64,000 bases of DNA from Bordetella genomosp. 5. GTDB lineage: Bacteria; Pseudomonadota; Gammaproteobacteria; Burkholderiales; Burkholderiaceae_B. The stretch is from contig NZ_NEVN01000004.1 in NCBI RefSeq assembly GCF_002261475.1, forward strand, positions 496,001 to 560,000, in the 5' to 3' direction. Positions 23,958 through 31,299 of this stretch are shown piece by piece; positions within the stretch are counted from its first letter, which is position 1, and every line of letters begins with the position of its first letter. The notes beneath the pieces were generated by a model. That model was not told where the DNA came from and made no database searches. It saw only the letters and a list, made by a program, of their open reading frames with translations. The translations under genes and the position numbers were made by a program.

Positions 23958-25325
23958 CTACGCCGCCACGGCGCAGGTCCCGTCGACCAGCGCGTCGAAC
24001 AGTTGCTCGCCGCCCATCTGCCCGCCCTTGAGCATCAGCTCGATGCCGTTGGTGGCGGGGTCGTCGCCATGGCCCACGCTCACGGCCACGCCCGGCGCCA
24101 GGACCGAATGGAACGAAAGTCCCCACAGCCCCAATGCAAGCACGGCCTGACTCGAGGTGTCGCCGCCCGCGATGCCGATGCGGGTGAGGCCGTGGCCCGC
24201 GGCCGCACAGGCGCGCACGATGGCGGCCAGGAGGCCGGCCGTGGCCTGAGCCGTGGCGGCGGTCTGCTCGGCCGACGGAGGCTGTGCCGGCGCCAGCGTG
24301 TGGACCAGCGCGTGATGGCCGGCCGCGAGGAGGGCCGTGGCATCCATCGCGCATTGCCGCGCGTAGGCTGAATCCCGGGCGAGGCGCTCGGCGTCCACCG
24401 CGAGCCGCTGGTAGTGGCGCGCGGCCTCGATCTGTCGTGCGGTCACGGGCGACAGGCTGCCCGCCAGCATCAGCACCGGGCCCGCTGCCGGGCGCAGCGC
24501 ACTGCCCTCGCCGCGCGGCCGGGGCGGGGCAGGGATCAGATCGGGGTCGGCCGCGATCGCGCGCGCCAGGGCCTGTTGCACGCTGCTCGCGCCCACGGCC
24601 AGCAACGGAGCGTGGCGCGCGGCCCGCCACATCAGACGGCCCAGCGGCGCGAGGTGGTGTTCGTCGGTCACATCCAGCAGCAGCGGACCCGAGGCCTCGC
24701 CGAGCAGTCGGTCGATCCACGGGTCGAGTCCGGCCGCTTCACCCGGGCCGCGCGGCGCGGGGTAGCGGGTGTGCGGCAGCGACATCACCCCGTGCAGCCC
24801 CTGGGCCTCGAGATGGCGCCGCAGGTCGGGCTCGTGCATCGGCGTCACGGGATGGCGGCTCATGACCGGATGCCGGTCGATCCGGTGAATCTCGGGCGCC
24901 GCGCCGGCTCGCGCGAAGAGGTGCGCGAAGCTGCAGTAGCGGCCGATGCTGGGTTGGCCCCCCACGATGGGCACGAGCGGATGCGGCGCGTACTGGCGCA
25001 GCACCTCTACCGCCTTGCCGATGCTGCCCACGTGAGGCGCGCTGTCGAAGGTCGAGCAGCATTTGTAGTGCAGGATGCGCGCGCCGGTGCCCGCCAGAAA
25101 ACGCCCGACCTCGTGCAGCTCCGTCTCCATGCGCGCGGGTGTCATGCCGCGCGCGGCGCCCGCGATGCCGATGGCGTCCAGCGGCCCCACGGCGGCAAGC
25201 CGTGCGGGTGTCGGCACGCTCATGAACAGCAGGCTGCGCCAGCCCGCGCGCGCCACTTCGGCCAGCGTGTCGGTCGCGCCGGTGAAGTCGTCGCCGTACC
25301 AGGCCAGACGCGGGGGCATGCTCAT
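23958..25325 (-). CDS. oiaK: DUF1537 four-carbon-acid sugar kinase family, OiaK-like
   Basis: A 455-aa kinase with both family halves: an N-terminal acid-sugar-binding domain (PRLAWYGDDFTGATDTLAEV, with the DDFTG motif) and a C-terminal nucleotide-binding domain (IGIAGGDTSSQAVLALG, ATNGIELMLKGGQMGGEQLF). The internal IVGGQPSIGRYCSF motif is typical. DUF1537 kinases phosphorylate acid sugars; paired with a RuBisCO-like protein the best match is OiaK, 3-oxo-isoapionate kinase. Its ATG overlaps the RuBisCO-like stop (ATGA), so the two are translationally coupled. The exact substrate is inferred. Confidence 0.8.
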   Translation of the reverse strand: MSMPPRLAWYGDDFTGATDTLAEVARAGWRSLLFMSVPTPARLAAVGPLDAIGIAGAARGMTPARMETELHEVGRFLAGTGARILHYKCCSTFDSAPHVGSIGKAVEVLRQYAPHPLVPIVGGQPSIGRYCSFAHLFARAGAAPEIHRIDRHPVMSRHPVTPMHEPDLRRHLEAQGLHGVMSLPHTRYPAPRGPGEAAGLDPWIDRLLGEASGPLLLDVTDEHHLAPLGRLMWRAARHAPLLAVGASSVQQALARAIAADPDLIPAPPRPRGEGSALRPAAGPVLMLAGSLSPVTARQIEAARHYQRLAVDAERLARDSAYARQCAMDATALLAAGHHALVHTLAPAQPPSAEQTAATAQATAGLLAAIVRACAAAGHGLTRIGIAGGDTSSQAVLALGLWGLSFHSVLAPGVAVSVGHGDDPATNGIELMLKGGQMGGEQLFDALVDGTCAVAA

Positions 25326-26596
25326 GCCGCGCCGCCGAAGTGCGCCAGCGCGCGTTGCAGCGCGGGCGCCTGGGCGGCGTACTCGGCCAGCGTTTTGCCG
25401 GCGCGTACCGCATCCCAGGCGTCGCGAATGCTCTGCACGCCCGCGGCCGGGCCGTCGGGATGGGCGAGGATGCCGCCGCCCGACATGAACATCAGATCGT
25501 CGGTGTGCAAGGCGTCCCAGGTGGCGGGCACCGTGCCGGCCCACTGGCCCGACGAGAAGGCGGGCATGACGGCGTCGTCCAGGCCGGATGCGAGCGGCGC
25601 CAGGCAGTCGCGCGCCGATTCGACCACCTCGTCGTCGGTCTGCGAAAACTTACCCTGCAGGCCGTGTACGTGCATGTGGTCCACGCCGGCCAGACGCCAC
25701 AGCACCTGATACGCCTGAAAGCCGATGCCGAGCAAGGGGTGCCGCGCCAGCGCGCCGTAGCCGTTGCGATGGCCGTGCAAGGCGAGCGGGGTGTGGCGTC
25801 GCAGCGTCTGGATCGCCGAATAGCCGCACCAGTTCAGGCTCGCCATGACGCATGAGCCGCCCGCGCGTTCGATCAGATCGGCATGCCGCAGCATGGCGTC
25901 GGTCTCATCGCTGATGTTGAAGGCCACCATCACGTCGCGCCCGGTGCGGTCGCGGTGCGCGCGCACGACCGCCATCACGGCCTCGACGCGCTGCGCCAGT
26001 GGCGCGTGCGCGGGATTGGCGCAGACCTCGTCGTCCTTGATGAAGTCCACGCCGGCCGCGCACAGCTGCGCGACCAGATGCGCGGTCTGCTCGGGCGACA
26101 GGCCGACGTTGGGTTTGATGATGGTGCCGACCAGCGGACCGCGGGCCACGCCGGTGGCGCGGCGCGTGCCGGCGATCCCGAGGCGTGGCATGTCGAACTG
26201 CGCACGGTAGTTCGACGGCAGACTCAGGCGCTCGAGCCGCAGCCCGGTCACCTCGCCCAGATCGTACAGATTGCCGCTGACCGTGGCCGCGAGCGTGGGC
26301 AGGTTCGCGCCGATATTGGCGGTCGGAAATGCGATGCGCACGCGCGCCCGCTGGTAGCGCGCCGCGTCCGGATGCTGGCGTTCGAGCCAGGCATTGGGCA
26401 GCGCGGGCCGGTCCGCGGCGTCGAGCAGCGTGATGTCTTCGACCACCGCGCGGGCGCGTGCCCGCAGCTCGTCGGTCTCGCCCTGCACGCGGGTGAACGT
26501 GCCGCACGACTGTTCGCCCGCCATCACTTCGGCGACGCGCGCCGGGTCCAGCGGGGTCTCGATCAGATACGTGGCGCGAATCATCTGGGAGTTCAT
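25322..26596 (-). CDS. oiaX: RuBisCO-like protein, OiaX-like (3-oxo-isoapionate-4-phosphate transcarboxylase/hydrolase)
   Basis: A 424-aa RuBisCO-superfamily protein. Retained active-site features are Lys161 (TIIKPNVGLS), the carbamate/metal motif FIKDDE with Lys187, Asp189 and Glu190, the HGHRNG histidines around 274-276, a loop-6-like GLQGKF with Lys316, and the phosphate loop MSGGG. Several substitutions (for example KPNVG) exclude a true CO2-fixing enzyme. Coupling to a DUF1537 kinase and a TRAP transporter matches OiaX, which acts on 3-oxo-isoapionate 4-phosphate. An enolase-type MtnW role is less likely because no methionine-salvage genes are near. Confidence 0.82.
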   Translation of the reverse strand: MNSQMIRATYLIETPLDPARVAEVMAGEQSCGTFTRVQGETDELRARARAVVEDITLLDAADRPALPNAWLERQHPDAARYQRARVRIAFPTANIGANLPTLAATVSGNLYDLGEVTGLRLERLSLPSNYRAQFDMPRLGIAGTRRATGVARGPLVGTIIKPNVGLSPEQTAHLVAQLCAAGVDFIKDDEVCANPAHAPLAQRVEAVMAVVRAHRDRTGRDVMVAFNISDETDAMLRHADLIERAGGSCVMASLNWCGYSAIQTLRRHTPLALHGHRNGYGALARHPLLGIGFQAYQVLWRLAGVDHMHVHGLQGKFSQTDDEVVESARDCLAPLASGLDDAVMPAFSSGQWAGTVPATWDALHTDDLMFMSGGGILAHPDGPAAGVQSIRDAWDAVRAGKTLAEYAAQAPALQRALAHFGGAA

Positions 26597-26606
26597 GCGG
26601 CGGCGC

Positions 26607-27146
26607 TCACAGGGTTTTCAGGTCGGGGAACGCGCGCACCGGATCGCGGCCGTCCCAGCCCTGGGCGCTCGAGCGGATCAGGTCGAACAGCTTGCCCTTG
26701 GGGCCCGCCACTTCGGAAAGCTCGATCACGGTGCCGGGGTGGTATTCGGTATCGAAGTAGATGAAGCGGCCATTGGCGCCGACTTCGCCGCTCATCTTGG
26801 GCTTGAAGCCCTGCGCCAGCAGGCGCTCGAGGTCGGCGTCGTAGCTCTCGGTCCAGTAGGCCACGTGCTGCAGCCCGGTGCGGCCGGCGCGCAGGAAGTC
26901 GCGGTACATCGACGGCACGTCGTTGCGGGTCTGGATCAGCTCCACCTGCACGAAGCCCGAATTGGCCAGCGCGACGGAGTTGTGCGGCTCGTGGCGTTCG
27001 CCATCGTATTGATAGTTTTCGATCGGCACGCGCGGGTTGTAGTACCAGGGGCCCACGCCGAGCGTCTCGCTCCAGTAATGCATGGCGGCCTCGATATCGG
27101 GCACCACATAACCGAGTTGACGGATTTCACCCAGGAAACGGCTCAT
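26607..27146 (-). CDS. VOC (glyoxalase/bleomycin-resistance fold) protein in the RuBisCO-like operon
   Basis: A 179-aa two-module VOC protein. Its opening RQLGYVVPDIEAAMHYWSETLGVGPWYY resembles methylmalonyl-CoA epimerase/Glyoxalase_4 relatives. Candidate metal ligands are the glutamate in QVELIQTR, the histidine in LQHVAYWTE and the glutamate in VIELSEVAG. It ends 10 bp before the RuBisCO-like gene start, so it is firmly in the operon. A role as an epimerase, isomerase or C-C lyase on the sugar-acid intermediate is plausible but unassigned; known apionate pathways do not need such an enzyme as far as I recall. Confidence 0.8.
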   Translation of the reverse strand: MSRFLGEIRQLGYVVPDIEAAMHYWSETLGVGPWYYNPRVPIENYQYDGERHEPHNSVALANSGFVQVELIQTRNDVPSMYRDFLRAGRTGLQHVAYWTESYDADLERLLAQGFKPKMSGEVGANGRFIYFDTEYHPGTVIELSEVAGPKGKLFDLIRSSAQGWDGRDPVRAFPDLKTL

Positions 27147-27167
27147 GTTGTCTGTTCTGCAAGAAGA

Positions 27168-27187
27168 GGGCGTCCGGACGGACGCCC
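27168..27187 (-). terminator. Hairpin between TRAP and VOC genes
   Basis: A perfect 8-bp stem GGGCGTCC/GGACGCCC with a 4-nt loop lies in the 46-bp gap; on the minus strand it is followed by TCTTCTT. It could be a partial terminator or mRNA-stabilising element separating transporter from enzyme expression. Confidence 0.55.
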
Positions 27188-27192
27188 GTTGA

Positions 27193-29100
27193 TCATTTGA
27201 GGAAACCGATGGAGAACCACGGGAACGCGGCCACGATCAGCAGGCCCACCAGCAGCGCGCCGATGTAGCCCCAGATCGGGCGGATGCCTTCGTTGGGATC
27301 CACGCGGCTGATGGCGCAGGCGCCGTAGTAGCCGACGCCGAAGGGCGGTGCGAACAGACCGATGCCCATCGCGAAAATCACGACCATCGCGTAATGCACC
27401 TCGTGCACGCCGGCCTGCACCGCGATCGGGAACAGCAGCGGCCCGAACAGCACGATGGCGGGGATGCCTTCGAGCACGCTGCCCAGGATGATGAAGGCCA
27501 CGATCGAGACGGCCAGGAAGCCGTAGGCGCCGCCGGGCATGTCGGCCATCAGCCTGGCCAGGTCGCCCGAGAAGCCCGACTGGGTGAGACCCCAGGCCAT
27601 CGCCGTGGCGCAACCCACGATCAGCATGATGGCGCCCGACAGCGAGGCCGTCTCCACCAGCATGGGCTTCACGCGGCCCCAGTTGAACTGGCGATACACC
27701 AGCAGGCCCACCACCACCGAATACACCACCCCGATGGTCGAGACCTCCGTGGCGGTGGCCACGCCTTCCACCACGGCTGCGCGAATCACGAAGGGCAGGG
27801 CCACGGCCGGCAGCGCCACGATGAAGAGCTTGCCGATCTCGCGGGCGGCGTAGCGCTTGACCTGCGAGAGGTCTTCTTTGCGGTAGCGCCACCACACCAC
27901 GGCGGCCAGCGCCAGGCCCAGCACCACGGCCGGCATCAGGCCGCCCGTGAAGAGCGCGGCGATCGAGACCCCGGTCACCGAGCCGATGGTGATCAGCACG
28001 ATGGACGGGGGAATGGGCTCCGTCTGCGCGCCGGTGGCCGACAGCAGGGCGACGAGGTCGCCCGGTTTGGCGCCGCGTTTGCGCATCTCGGGGAACAGCA
28101 CCGGCGCGATTGCGGCCATGTCGGCGATCTTGGAGCCCGAGATGCCGGACACCAGATACATCGCTCCGATCAGCACATACGACAGCCCGCCGCGCACGTG
28201 GCCGAGCAGGCTGGCGAGAAACTGGATCATGGCGCGCGCCATGCCGGTCATCTCGATCAGCGAGCCCAGGAAGATGAACAGCGGCACGGCCAGCAGCATC
28301 AGGTGCGACATGCCTTCATCGAGCCGGCCGACCATCACCACCATGGGCGTGTTGGTCGTGAGCGCCAGGTACGAGAAAGTGGCCAGTGCGAACGAGAAGG
28401 CGATGGGCACGCCGGTGAACACGGTGGCGGCCACGATGCCCACGAAGAAGATCACGAGATTGAGCTTGCCCAGCGGGGCGAACAGCGGCTGCGCCAGCCA
28501 GAACAGCGCGACGACGGCGGCGGCCAGGCCGAGGGCCAGCCCGACCTGGGACAAACGTTGCGTGCGCACCAGCTTGAGCAGCGCCACGATCGCCATCAGG
28601 CCCATGCCGACCGGCAGCGCCGCGGCGCGCCAGGCGTTGCTCAGCTCGAGCGCGGGCGTGATGATGAAGTGTTCTTCGTGGGCGTATTCGATGGCGGGGC
28701 CCAGCACCAGCACCAGGAACGCGAGCGACGCCGCGAGGGCCGCGACTTCGAGCCGCGCCCGCACGGCCGGGCGCACGTTGTTCACGAGGGCCGTCATGCG
28801 CATGTGCTCGCCGCGCCGCAGCGCCACCACCGCGCCCAGCATCGACAGCCACAGGAACAGGATGGACGCGAGCTCGTCGGACCACACCAGCGGGCTGTGC
28901 AGCGCGTAGCGCGCCACCACGCCGGCGAACAGCACGATGATCTCGATCAGGACGATGGCCGCGGCGACGTGCTCGACCACGGTGCCGAGCACGCTTTCGA
29001 TACGGCCGGCCACGCGCGCGAGCGGGCCGTCGGGGGCGCCGGCGAGCGGTGCGCCGGGGGCGGCATGGCCGCCCGGCAGGGTGGTCATGGGCGTGCTCAT
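27193..29100 (-). CDS. dctQM: TRAP transporter fused small and large permease (DctQM)
   Basis: A 635-aa inner-membrane fusion. Residues ~30-190 are the four-helix DctQ domain (VVARYALHSPLVWSDELASILFLWLSMLGAVVAL); residues ~215-635 are the 12-helix DctM domain (AVPLFIFLGSLIEMTGMARAMIQF, GISGSKIADMAAIAPVL, TEPIPPSIVLITIGS). It drives sodium-coupled uptake of an organic acid delivered by DctP. It starts 9 bp after dctP. The C-terminus has the usual IWGYIGALLVGLL. The substrate is likely the sugar acid handled by the downstream enzymes. Confidence 0.92.
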   Translation of the reverse strand: MSTPMTTLPGGHAAPGAPLAGAPDGPLARVAGRIESVLGTVVEHVAAAIVLIEIIVLFAGVVARYALHSPLVWSDELASILFLWLSMLGAVVALRRGEHMRMTALVNNVRPAVRARLEVAALAASLAFLVLVLGPAIEYAHEEHFIITPALELSNAWRAAALPVGMGLMAIVALLKLVRTQRLSQVGLALGLAAAVVALFWLAQPLFAPLGKLNLVIFFVGIVAATVFTGVPIAFSFALATFSYLALTTNTPMVVMVGRLDEGMSHLMLLAVPLFIFLGSLIEMTGMARAMIQFLASLLGHVRGGLSYVLIGAMYLVSGISGSKIADMAAIAPVLFPEMRKRGAKPGDLVALLSATGAQTEPIPPSIVLITIGSVTGVSIAALFTGGLMPAVVLGLALAAVVWWRYRKEDLSQVKRYAAREIGKLFIVALPAVALPFVIRAAVVEGVATATEVSTIGVVYSVVVGLLVYRQFNWGRVKPMLVETASLSGAIMLIVGCATAMAWGLTQSGFSGDLARLMADMPGGAYGFLAVSIVAFIILGSVLEGIPAIVLFGPLLFPIAVQAGVHEVHYAMVVIFAMGIGLFAPPFGVGYYGACAISRVDPNEGIRPIWGYIGALLVGLLIVAAFPWFSIGFLK

Positions 29101-29109
29101 CGCTCGCCC

Positions 29110-30129
29110 TTATGCCAGCTTGCCGACGGACTGCTCGAGCAGGCCCCAGGCTTCCTTGCCGAAGCGTTCCTGCCATTCCTTGTAGAACCCGGCGGTGCGC
29201 AGCTGCTCGCGGAAGCTGTCGGCCGACGGCTGGTTGAATGTCAGGCCCTTGCCTTCGAGGTCGGACTGCACAGAGGCGTTGAGTTTCTTGATGTCTTCGC
29301 GCTGGGCCAGGCCCGCTTCGTTGATCCCGCGCGCCACCACCGTCTTGAGGTCGGCGGGCAGGCCTTCCCACATGCGGCCGTTGGCGATGAACCAGTAGCC
29401 GTCCCAGATGTGATTGGTCAGCGAGCAGTACTTCTGCACTTCGTAGAGCTTGGCCACCTGGATGATGGGCAGCGGGTTCTCCTGCGCGTCGACCACGCGG
29501 GTCTGCAGCGACGAATAGACCTCGCTGAACTGCAGGCTGGCGGGCGCGGCGCCCAGGCCCTTGAACATCGAGATCGGCAGCGAGCTCACGGGCACGCGGA
29601 TCTTCAGGCCGGCCATGTCGGCCGCGCTCTGTACCGGCGCCTTGCTGCTGGTGGTCTGGCGAAAGCCGTTGTCCCACATCTTCTCGAACGCATAGAGGCG
29701 GCGCTGAGCGATGGCCGCGCGCACGTGGGCGCCGAGTGCGCCGTCCATCGCGCCCCACACCTGGTCGTAGTCCTTGAAGGCGAAGCCGACGGCGTTGATC
29801 GCGGCCACCGGCACCAGCGTGGCGATCACCAGCGCAGAGGGCGTGAAGAAGTCGATGCCACCCGAGCGCACCTGCGCCAGCATGTCGGTGTCGCCGCCGA
29901 GCTGGTTGTTCGGGAAGATCTTGATGTCGACGCGGCCGTTGCTTTCCTTCAGGATGCGGTCGGCGGCTTCCTGGGCGCGAACGTTCAGCGGATGCGTGAC
30001 CGGCAGGTTGTTGCCGTACTTCAGGTTGAATTCGGCCCCCTTGGCGATGAAGGGGAAACCGCCTGCCAGGGCGGCGGCGGGCACGGCGCACAGACGGCGC
30101 AAGGCGCTGCGACGGGTGATCAGCTTCAT
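29110..30129 (-). CDS. dctP: TRAP transporter periplasmic binding protein (DctP)
   Basis: A 339-aa receptor with an export signal carrying two Arg pairs (TRRSALRRLCAVPAAALAGGFPF), followed by a DctP domain. EFNLKYGNNLPVTHPLNVRAQEAADRI and VPVSSLPISMFKGLGAAP (carboxylate-binding region with a conserved Arg) are typical. It is first of the TRAP operon and divergent to a LacI-type regulator. The ligand is presumably a sugar acid or its lactone-derived acid. Confidence 0.92.
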   Translation of the reverse strand: MKLITRRSALRRLCAVPAAALAGGFPFIAKGAEFNLKYGNNLPVTHPLNVRAQEAADRILKESNGRVDIKIFPNNQLGGDTDMLAQVRSGGIDFFTPSALVIATLVPVAAINAVGFAFKDYDQVWGAMDGALGAHVRAAIAQRRLYAFEKMWDNGFRQTTSSKAPVQSAADMAGLKIRVPVSSLPISMFKGLGAAPASLQFSEVYSSLQTRVVDAQENPLPIIQVAKLYEVQKYCSLTNHIWDGYWFIANGRMWEGLPADLKTVVARGINEAGLAQREDIKKLNASVQSDLEGKGLTFNQPSADSFREQLRTAGFYKEWQERFGKEAWGLLEQSVGKLA

Positions 30130-30243
30130 GTTGTCTCCAGATTTTTGATGTAATTTGATGTGCTTCTATGAGCCATCGCCCGATGCTTCTCGCAGGCTGT
30201 GTGCACAATAGGTGAGCCGCTACCGCAACGTCAAATCGGAAAA

Positions 30244-31299
30244 ATGATGGATTCTGATGTGAAATCCAAGCCTTTACGCAGCCTCGCACGCCTGTCGGAT
30301 GTAGCCGCGCTCGCCGGTGTTTCCACAGCCACCGCCGATCGGGTGCTGAACCGCCGGCCCGGCGTGCGCCAGGTCACGGCGCAGAAGGTGCTGCAGGCGG
30401 CGGCCGAGCTCGACTACCTCCCGGCCGAGGCCGATGTGTCGCCGGTGCGCGAGCCCATGCGGCTGGTGTTTCTGCTGCCGCGCGGCAGCAATCGCTTCTT
30501 GCGCATGCTGGGCGATACGGTGGGCTATGCCGCCGAACACGTCGCGCCGCTCAACGCGCGCTGCCAGGTGGAGTATGTGGAGAGCTTCAATCCCGATGCG
30601 CTCGCGCGTGCGCTGCTCAAGCGCGGACGCCGCGCCGATGGCATCGCGTTCATGGCGCTCGAGCATCCCGCCGTGCGCGAGGCAGTCGATACGCTGGCGC
30701 AACGCGGCGTGCCGACAGTGACGCTGATCTCCGATATCGCCAACTGCGCGCGCGCGGCCTATGTGGGGCTGGACAACCGCGCGGCGGGGCGCACCGCCGG
30801 CTATCTGATCGGCCGCTTCATCGGGCCCCGCGCGGCCCAGGTGGCCCTGATCGCCGGCTCGCGCCATTACCGTGGCCACGAAGAGCGCGAGGCCGGATTC
30901 CTGCAGCTGTATGCCGAGCGCTTCCAGGCCATGCAGGTGGTGGGACTGCGCGAAGGCTACGACGACGAACAGCGCAATTACGAGCAGACGCGGCAGCTCA
31001 TCGAACAGTACCCGCAGCTCGCGGGCATCTACAACATCGGGGGCGCGTCCGATGGCGTGGCCCGTGCGCTCAAAGAGGCGGGCCTGCAGCATCGCGTGGT
31101 CTTCATCGGCCATGGGCTCACGCCCGATACGCGTGCGTTGCTGATCGATGGCACGATGGACGCCGTCATCACGCAGAGCCCGCTCGAGGCCTTGATGAAT
31201 TGCGTGCGCATCTTCACCAACCTGCGCGATCGCCGCAGCCCCATGACCGGCGTCGAGTTCGCCCGCAGTCAGGTGATCTTTCGCGAAAACCTGCCCTGA
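30244..31299 (+). CDS. LacI-family transcriptional regulator
   Basis: About 351 aa. The HTH is RLSDVAALAGVSTATADRVLNRRPGVRQVT, with a hinge helix and a periplasmic-binding-type effector domain (GLDNRAAGRTAGYLIGRFIG, GIYNIGGASDGVARALKEAG). ATGs at 30244 and 30247 are both possible; an upstream in-frame GTG at 30199 is not needed. It is divergent from the TRAP/RuBisCO-like operon across 114 bp, so it most likely represses that operon until the sugar acid or a phosphorylated intermediate appears. No clear operator palindrome was found. Confidence 0.88.
   Translation: MMDSDVKSKPLRSLARLSDVAALAGVSTATADRVLNRRPGVRQVTAQKVLQAAAELDYLPAEADVSPVREPMRLVFLLPRGSNRFLRMLGDTVGYAAEHVAPLNARCQVEYVESFNPDALARALLKRGRRADGIAFMALEHPAVREAVDTLAQRGVPTVTLISDIANCARAAYVGLDNRAAGRTAGYLIGRFIGPRAAQVALIAGSRHYRGHEEREAGFLQLYAERFQAMQVVGLREGYDDEQRNYEQTRQLIEQYPQLAGIYNIGGASDGVARALKEAGLQHRVVFIGHGLTPDTRALLIDGTMDAVITQSPLEALMNCVRIFTNLRDRRSPMTGVEFARSQVIFRENLP

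Follow-up and report, generated by a model that had tools for sequence, protein, structure and literature searches.

A conserved operon with a VOC protein, a RuBisCO-like protein and a DUF1537 kinase in Bordetella genomosp. 5, probably a variant of sugar-acid catabolism

By analyzing a stretch of 64,000 nucleotides of the Bordetella genomosp. 5 genome (contig NZ_NEVN01000004.1, positions 496,001 to 560,000; hereafter the window), we found that an operon on the minus strand (23958-30129) carries a set of three enzymes conserved among its relatives. In the order of transcription, it encodes the TRAP solute-binding protein DctP, the TRAP permease DctQM, a VOC-fold protein, a RuBisCO-like protein (RLP) and a DUF1537 kinase. 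This operon is probably a conserved variant of RLP/DUF1537 sugar-acid catabolism. As a complete model, to which we give a probability of roughly 0.45, we propose a short, self-contained sugar-acid pathway with a back end of the D-apionate type, in which the VOC protein would act as a front-end isomerase making a 3-oxo acid. The gene content and coordinates of the operon were claimed in a first description of the window (the initial annotation) and are borne out, with every family confirmed by Pfam at scores above its gathering thresholds.

Conservation of the VOC, RLP and kinase genes

The three enzymes are the VOC-fold protein, a putative front-end isomerase of 179 residues (26607-27146), the RLP of 424 residues (25322-26596) and the DUF1537, or four-carbon acid sugar, kinase of 455 residues (23958-25325). 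The RLP stop and the kinase start overlap by ATGA at 25325-25322, as initially annotated. By using tblastn, we found VOC, RLP and kinase genes in this order and on one strand in 80/80 of the best relatives, a figure that describes near kin and not RLPs at large because only the best 80 of at least 589 RLP relatives confirmed in a GTDB genome scan were taken (72-84% identical). In these relatives, the end of the VOC match is separated from the start of the RLP match by 0 to 310 bp (median 19), and the median identity to the window is 84% for the VOC protein, 76% for the RLP and 52% for the kinase. The VOC protein is the best conserved enzyme of the operon. The LacI-type regulator, DctP and DctQM were matched in 77, 66 and 68 of the same relatives, respectively, including two weak DctP matches and two weak DctQM matches (27-30%) in L063 and L075, where another TRAP system is present. 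Among the matches listed, those to named organisms that come closest to the RLP are from Achromobacter (84% in A. dolens).

A survey of 92 loci, which takes in sister classes and plasmids, gave VOC (90), RLP (88), kinase (86), LacI (85), DctQM (70) and DctP (67) as the commonest families; since L126 and L030 share the same RLP, one genome is counted twice in these numbers. The next families, as found with a gene caller that misses some genes (those for the ABC transporter of L031, for example), were an ABC ATPase (18), a 321-residue protein that resembles a TctC receptor by eye (16), an ABC permease (12), an ABC binding protein (12) and a short-chain dehydrogenase/reductase (SDR; 10, one of which, in L013, lies away from the operon). 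No other enzyme is nearly as frequent, and therefore the conserved enzymes are VOC, RLP and kinase, with an SDR in some operons. The sets compared below comprise 105 VOC rows (96 distinct) and 88 rows of the RLP clade (87 distinct).

A VOC gene without an RLP gene is rare at high identity. The VOC protein was matched in 6 of 300 genomes of the order, where the five copies at 67% or more all adjoin an RLP gene and two copies at 48-56% do not. An RLP match also lies alongside in 18 of the 20 plasmid records with a VOC protein at 65% or more, the exceptions being L220 and L221.

Several variations on this gene set were observed. In Paenalcaligenes niemegkensis (L026:10001-12586), RLP and DUF1537 kinase are one frame of 861 codons, a natural fusion seen in one genome, and Roseinatronobacter sp. 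S2 (L221:2300-7500) carries a decaying copy of the operon with only pieces of VOC, RLP and kinase. VOC relatives at 48% are clustered with SDR-like genes in L154:7052-11743 and L155:5519-9313, the L154 cluster further holding a cupin, a LacI-type regulator and a TctC protein. RLPs at 46-52% are found on plasmids of haloarchaea and Rufibacter, too. A search of the open-licence literature returned no paper on a VOC-RLP-kinase gene set.

The RLP and its kinase compared with OiaX and OiaK

Two known systems bear on the RLP. One is the OiaK/OiaX branch of D-apionate catabolism, reportedly described by Carter et al. 2018 (Nat Chem Biol); the other is the Ochrobactrum RLP that acts in the D-hamamelose route, said to come from Kim et al. 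2018. With the former, the operon shares an RLP gene and a DUF1537 kinase gene side by side, and the two proteins find their best NCBIfam models in OiaX and OiaK, which upholds OiaX/OiaK as the nearest named pairing. However, the operon differs from this branch by missed cut-offs, a separate RLP clade, and a VOC gene with no ApnO-like gene.

First, the RLP matches RuBisCO_large in Pfam with 220 bits (C and N domains both above gathering scores) and reaches 437 of the 700 bits of the OiaX cut-off (NCBIfam NF042437). The RLP of L147, which lies beside LerI-, DerI- and DhaKL-like genes, reaches 787 bits. The OiaX model has one match in the genome of the window, and the NCBIfam outputs for the RLPs contain no model for OiaT, the transcarboxylase/hydrolase RLP of Xanthobacter. 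The RLP also misses the cut-offs of type III RuBisCO (232.9 of 497 bits) and of MtnW (TIGR03332; 125.7 of 513.6 bits), so that the grouping with MtnW named in the initial annotation as counting against its proposal is not what we see. Second, in a 48-row tree with groups assigned from gene neighbourhoods, the VOC-linked RLPs (20 of the 88 rows) form one clade with a support of 98/91, and the RLPs of OiaX loci (7 rows) form a separate one (100/100) that leaves the window RLP outside; the outgroup rows L086, L087 and L089 have very long branches and unchecked families. Third, the VOC-linked clade has its own letters at three positions, N163 (88/88 rows), Tyr/Phe280 (86/88) and H311 (87/88), whereas 25 RLPs of the other groups, assigned in the same way, hold Ser/Ala in all 25, then Trp and Asn in 24 each, with a single gap at either position; this comparison leaves out six outgroup picks, at least one of which (L085) looks like a wrong frame. 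We take the three positions to be 177, 298 and 327 in spinach numbering, and with that presumed equivalence the Lys177 of CO2-fixing RuBisCO is not kept in any of the 88 clade rows.

Lys161, Lys187, Asp189, Glu190, Arg277 and Lys316 are kept in 88/88 clade rows, all but Arg277 having been pointed out from the start, a pattern in keeping with an enediolate mechanism that uses a carbamate-bound metal. PDB 3nwr ("A rubisco-like protein", presumably from Burkholderia fungorum) is identical to the window RLP at 295 of 420 aligned residues (70%) and carries the N, Y and H that mark the clade.

The kinase belongs to the DUF1537 family by SBD_N (156.7 bits) and NBD_C (90.7 bits), both above gathering scores, and reaches 278 of the 700 bits of the OiaK cut-off (NF042436), its Pfam and NCBIfam scores having been obtained with a frame that starts one codon further upstream. 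This cut-off has no positive control here because it is reached by none of the 12 kinases scanned, including the one beside the L147 OiaX (464 bits). The window kinase also matches the model of 3-oxo-tetronate kinase (148 of 350 bits), and the clade kinase of L130 scores 185 bits for that model and 224 for OiaK. Such matches would fit a linear four-carbon route, in which the VOC protein would turn 2-oxo-tetronate into 3-oxo-tetronate, a step that OtnI performs elsewhere, the kinase would make 3-oxo-tetronate 4-phosphate and the RLP would decarboxylate it to dihydroxyacetone phosphate, which would account for the lack of any conserved downstream enzyme. We consider this route quite unlikely, as OiaK outscores 3-oxo-tetronate kinase in 12/12 kinases and the usual enzyme for the last step is no RLP but OtnC, annotated as 3-oxo-tetronate 4-phosphate decarboxylase in L163.

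The place of the VOC protein in the pathway

The VOC protein matches Glyoxalase_4 above its gathering score and has the VOC fold with its four metal-ligand positions, putatively Q10, E69, H94 and E142, all four invariant. It is very doubtful that it is an epimerase like methylmalonyl-CoA epimerase, with a substrate that either precedes or follows the RLP step. PDB 3gm5 (Thermoanaerobacter), at 29% identity, is named a methylmalonyl-CoA epimerase but only a "putative" one in its own title; the VOC protein reaches 27.1 of the 114.95 bits of the epimerase cut-off (TIGR03081) and is 17-21% identical to the epimerase structures. Moreover, C2 would carry no exchangeable proton if the RLP substrate were 2-substituted as in 3-oxo-isoapionate. 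We put its being a front-end isomerase at slightly under even odds, which would narrow the "unassigned isomerase or lyase" step of the initial annotation to one side of that pair.

The neighbours of related RLP genes are consistent with such a place. Among 17 RLP loci that belong to neither the VOC nor the OiaX clade, a PGDH_C protein, taken here as ApnO-like (NCBIfam names none of these proteins), lies near seven (L124, L125, L134, L137, L143, L144 and L145, where L134 and L145 have no called kinase). An SDR lies near six others (L132, L135, L136, L139, L163 and L164), of which five have a TRAP system akin to that of the window and L163 has an ApnO-like gene besides. Neither was seen near the remaining four (L133, L138, L141 and L142), where L138 has no kinase called beside the RLP. 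As for the seven OiaX loci, four have LerI- and DerI-like genes (L146, L147, L150 and L151) and four an ApnO-like gene (L148, L149, L150 and L151), a second one being found in L162, and a VOC gene was called in 0/7, so that the VOC protein is indeed no standard companion of OiaX. The VOC protein would thus fill the place held beside most sister RLP genes by an ApnO-like oxidoisomerase or an SDR dehydrogenase; where a VOC operon has an SDR, the two proteins would do the job that ApnO does as one.

In L141:7163-11525 and L142:6774-11183, a GH127 (beta-L-arabinofuranosidase) gene lies directly upstream of the RLP-kinase pair and is a possible sugar source for that other RLP clade.

The L140 locus carries VOC, DctP, DctQM and LacI at 79%, 74%, 74% and 63% identity to the window, together with an RLP placed among those of L132, L137 and L139 in a sister clade and a kinase scoring 549 bits for OiaK, against 278 for the window. 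The RLP-kinase pair has therefore been exchanged while the VOC gene stayed with transporter and regulator and, as the L140 genome has no PGDH_C match, the exchange ties the VOC protein to the front end. Taking L140 and the sister operons together, the VOC protein would make the acid that the RLP-kinase pair consumes.

The genome of the window (5.2 Mb, rated 99.99% complete) has no match to an ApnO-like protein, either with a probe or with Pfam PGDH_C, which as a positive control matched 4/6 other genomes, including three with a known copy; the absence of ApnO stated at the outset thus holds for the entire genome. Likewise, DerI (D-erythrulose-4-phosphate isomerase) has no match in this genome, while 7/14 control genomes match, none over the cut-off, and no LerI- or DerI-like gene lies in the operon. 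The genome has a single triosephosphate-isomerase-like protein, 37% identical to the LerI-like probe (LerI being our label, DerI the NCBIfam name), and, on the side of glycolate oxidation, GlcD homologues of which the best has 525 of 568 bits, none over the cut-off. Were the RLP a plain OiaX, its product, erythrulose phosphate, would find no DerI here to take it on.

Two other readings start from these observations. In one, the VOC protein would act after the RLP and, instead of LerI or DerI, isomerise what the RLP makes, a ketose phosphate similar to erythrulose phosphate; the missing DerI match and the single triosephosphate-isomerase-like protein speak for it, but in L140 a different RLP-kinase pair has come in and the VOC gene is still found with transporter and regulator, and we hold this reading very unlikely. 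In the other, the operon would import 3-oxo-isoapionate, or apionate made outside, and follow the known OiaK/OiaX or OiaT steps, with the VOC protein in an accessory or stereochemical role. The best NCBIfam models and the OiaK-like pair that stands in L140 in place of the VOC-clade pair point this way. Nevertheless, both equivalog cut-offs are missed, the RLP differs from OiaX in clade and in active-site letters, DerI has no match, and the VOC protein is the most conserved enzyme, which is odd for an accessory, so that we regard known steps as unlikely. Direct uptake of 3-oxo-isoapionate, an example given in the initial annotation, belongs to this reading and is no more than possible given these cut-offs, the DerI search and PDB 4oan, which fixes no ligand (see below).

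One plasmid weighs against the front-end model. In Azospirillum thermophilum (L220/L222; L222:12038-21104), LacI, DctP, DctQM and VOC (78%) are found with no RLP beside them, and an OiaK-like kinase (473 bits), PdxA (313 bits for a cut-off of 290) and an aldolase lie in the vicinity in other orientations. Either this is a remnant of the operon, or the cleaving enzyme of this locus is of the PdxA type.

A more specific form of the front-end model, which in its full detail is rather improbable, would make the VOC protein a cofactor-free ketol-acid isomerase with one divalent metal, which would act on a 2-oxo-3-hydroxy acid and transfer either a proton or a hydroxymethyl (or acyl) group between its carbons C2 and C3. 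This would be the isomerase half of ApnO made a separate enzyme, feeding an RLP clade (N163, Y/F280, H311) that would cleave a substrate no known RLP uses.

Transporter, regulator and proposed pathway

The TRAP system is complete, as initially described, with the added detail that both permeases are a single fused protein. DctP (29110-30129, 339 residues) has 242.5 bits for Pfam DctP, and DctQM (27193-29100, 635 residues) has 349 bits for DctM and 95.5 bits for DctQ, each of the three above its gathering score. At 196 of 309 aligned residues (63%), DctP is identical to PDB 4oan, reportedly modelled with (S)-2-acetolactate. However, the close kin of 4oan (81-86%, 7 loci) are accompanied by DctQM and then a 549-residue protein in 6/7, and by VOC, RLP or DUF1537 in 0/7, and the ligand inference from 4oan was dropped because its closest kin sit in this other type of operon. 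DctP/DctQM relatives beside the 549-residue protein (L196-L200 and L210), which proved to be an AMP-binding enzyme in both loci tested, L196 and L200, show that this TRAP family is also put to another use. A TRAP screen has 2-acetolactate among the ligands found (excerpt of PMC5812351).

Across the 92 loci, DctP/DctQM are replaced by an ABC transporter of the polar-amino-acid type in at least 12, L031 being one further case, and by a different TRAP system in 8. The binding protein of the former in L019 (nearest structure an ancestral reconstruction, E 2e-32) and the second TRAP binding protein in L129 (nearest structure E 2e-44) were too distant from any structure to indicate a ligand.

The 69 VOC loci with this DctP include 10 with an SDR, all with DctP at 61-66%, and 59 without, where DctP is at 71% or more in 58 and at 64% in L034. 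On the RLP tree, where 9/10 SDR loci had a row, this association comes down to three independent pairs, of which two agree and one is a tie (p 0.5). The link between SDR and DctP type is a lead, not a result.

Divergent from the operon, on the plus strand, lies a gene for a LacI-type regulator with a periplasmic-binding-type sensor domain (30244-31299, a start codon picked by eye among several; LacI 51 bits and Peripla_BP_4 130 bits in a Pfam scan of 30238-31296). The gap between this gene and DctP (window:30130-30260) holds a stretch, TCACATCAAAAACCATCAT-like and then TTTGACG, that the window has in common with 15 Achromobacter loci. Inverted repeats in this gap are short; the conserved stretch is a possible operator.

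In the pathway that we propose, the TRAP system would, judging by its family, import a small hydroxy or keto acid. The VOC protein, whose Gln/Glu/His/Glu site is expected to hold a divalent metal, would isomerise a 2-oxo (or ketol) acid to a 3-oxo acid, and the kinase, by its family and its best model OiaK, would phosphorylate the terminal hydroxyl. The RLP, with a carbamate-capable Lys187, Asp189, Glu190 and the loop-6 Lys316, would then form a metal-bound enediolate. This intermediate may undergo decarboxylation, or transcarboxylation/hydrolysis as reported for another RLP, to give a phosphorylated compound directly usable by central metabolism. RLPs are reported, in an excerpt, to catalyse decarboxylation and transcarboxylation/hydrolysis of 3-oxo-isoapionate-4-phosphate (PMC6302742), and the excerpt available for the hamamelose route links its RLP with 3-phosphoglycerate and glycolate (PMC8914248), products for which no extra isomerases would be needed. 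With a cleavage of this type, or with that of a four-carbon substrate to dihydroxyacetone phosphate, three enzymes would be enough to complete the pathway. As in our model, the RLP ends the pathway in the other known cases, the transcarboxylase/hydrolase and the D-hamamelose RLP of Ochrobactrum (excerpts of PMC6302742, PMC8914248 and PMC10176493).

RLPs illustrate the evolution of RuBisCO chemistry, and only a handful are characterised, according to an excerpt of PMC10176493. The parts of the operon come from known families, the VOC-RLP-kinase combination itself being uncharacterised. The VOC-linked RLP clade is found in many Beta- and Alphaproteobacteria and includes the solved structure 3nwr, which is listed without a function. 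Together, the compact operon and the solved structure of its clade could allow a new pathway to be assigned and may also bring to light a VOC reaction of a new kind.

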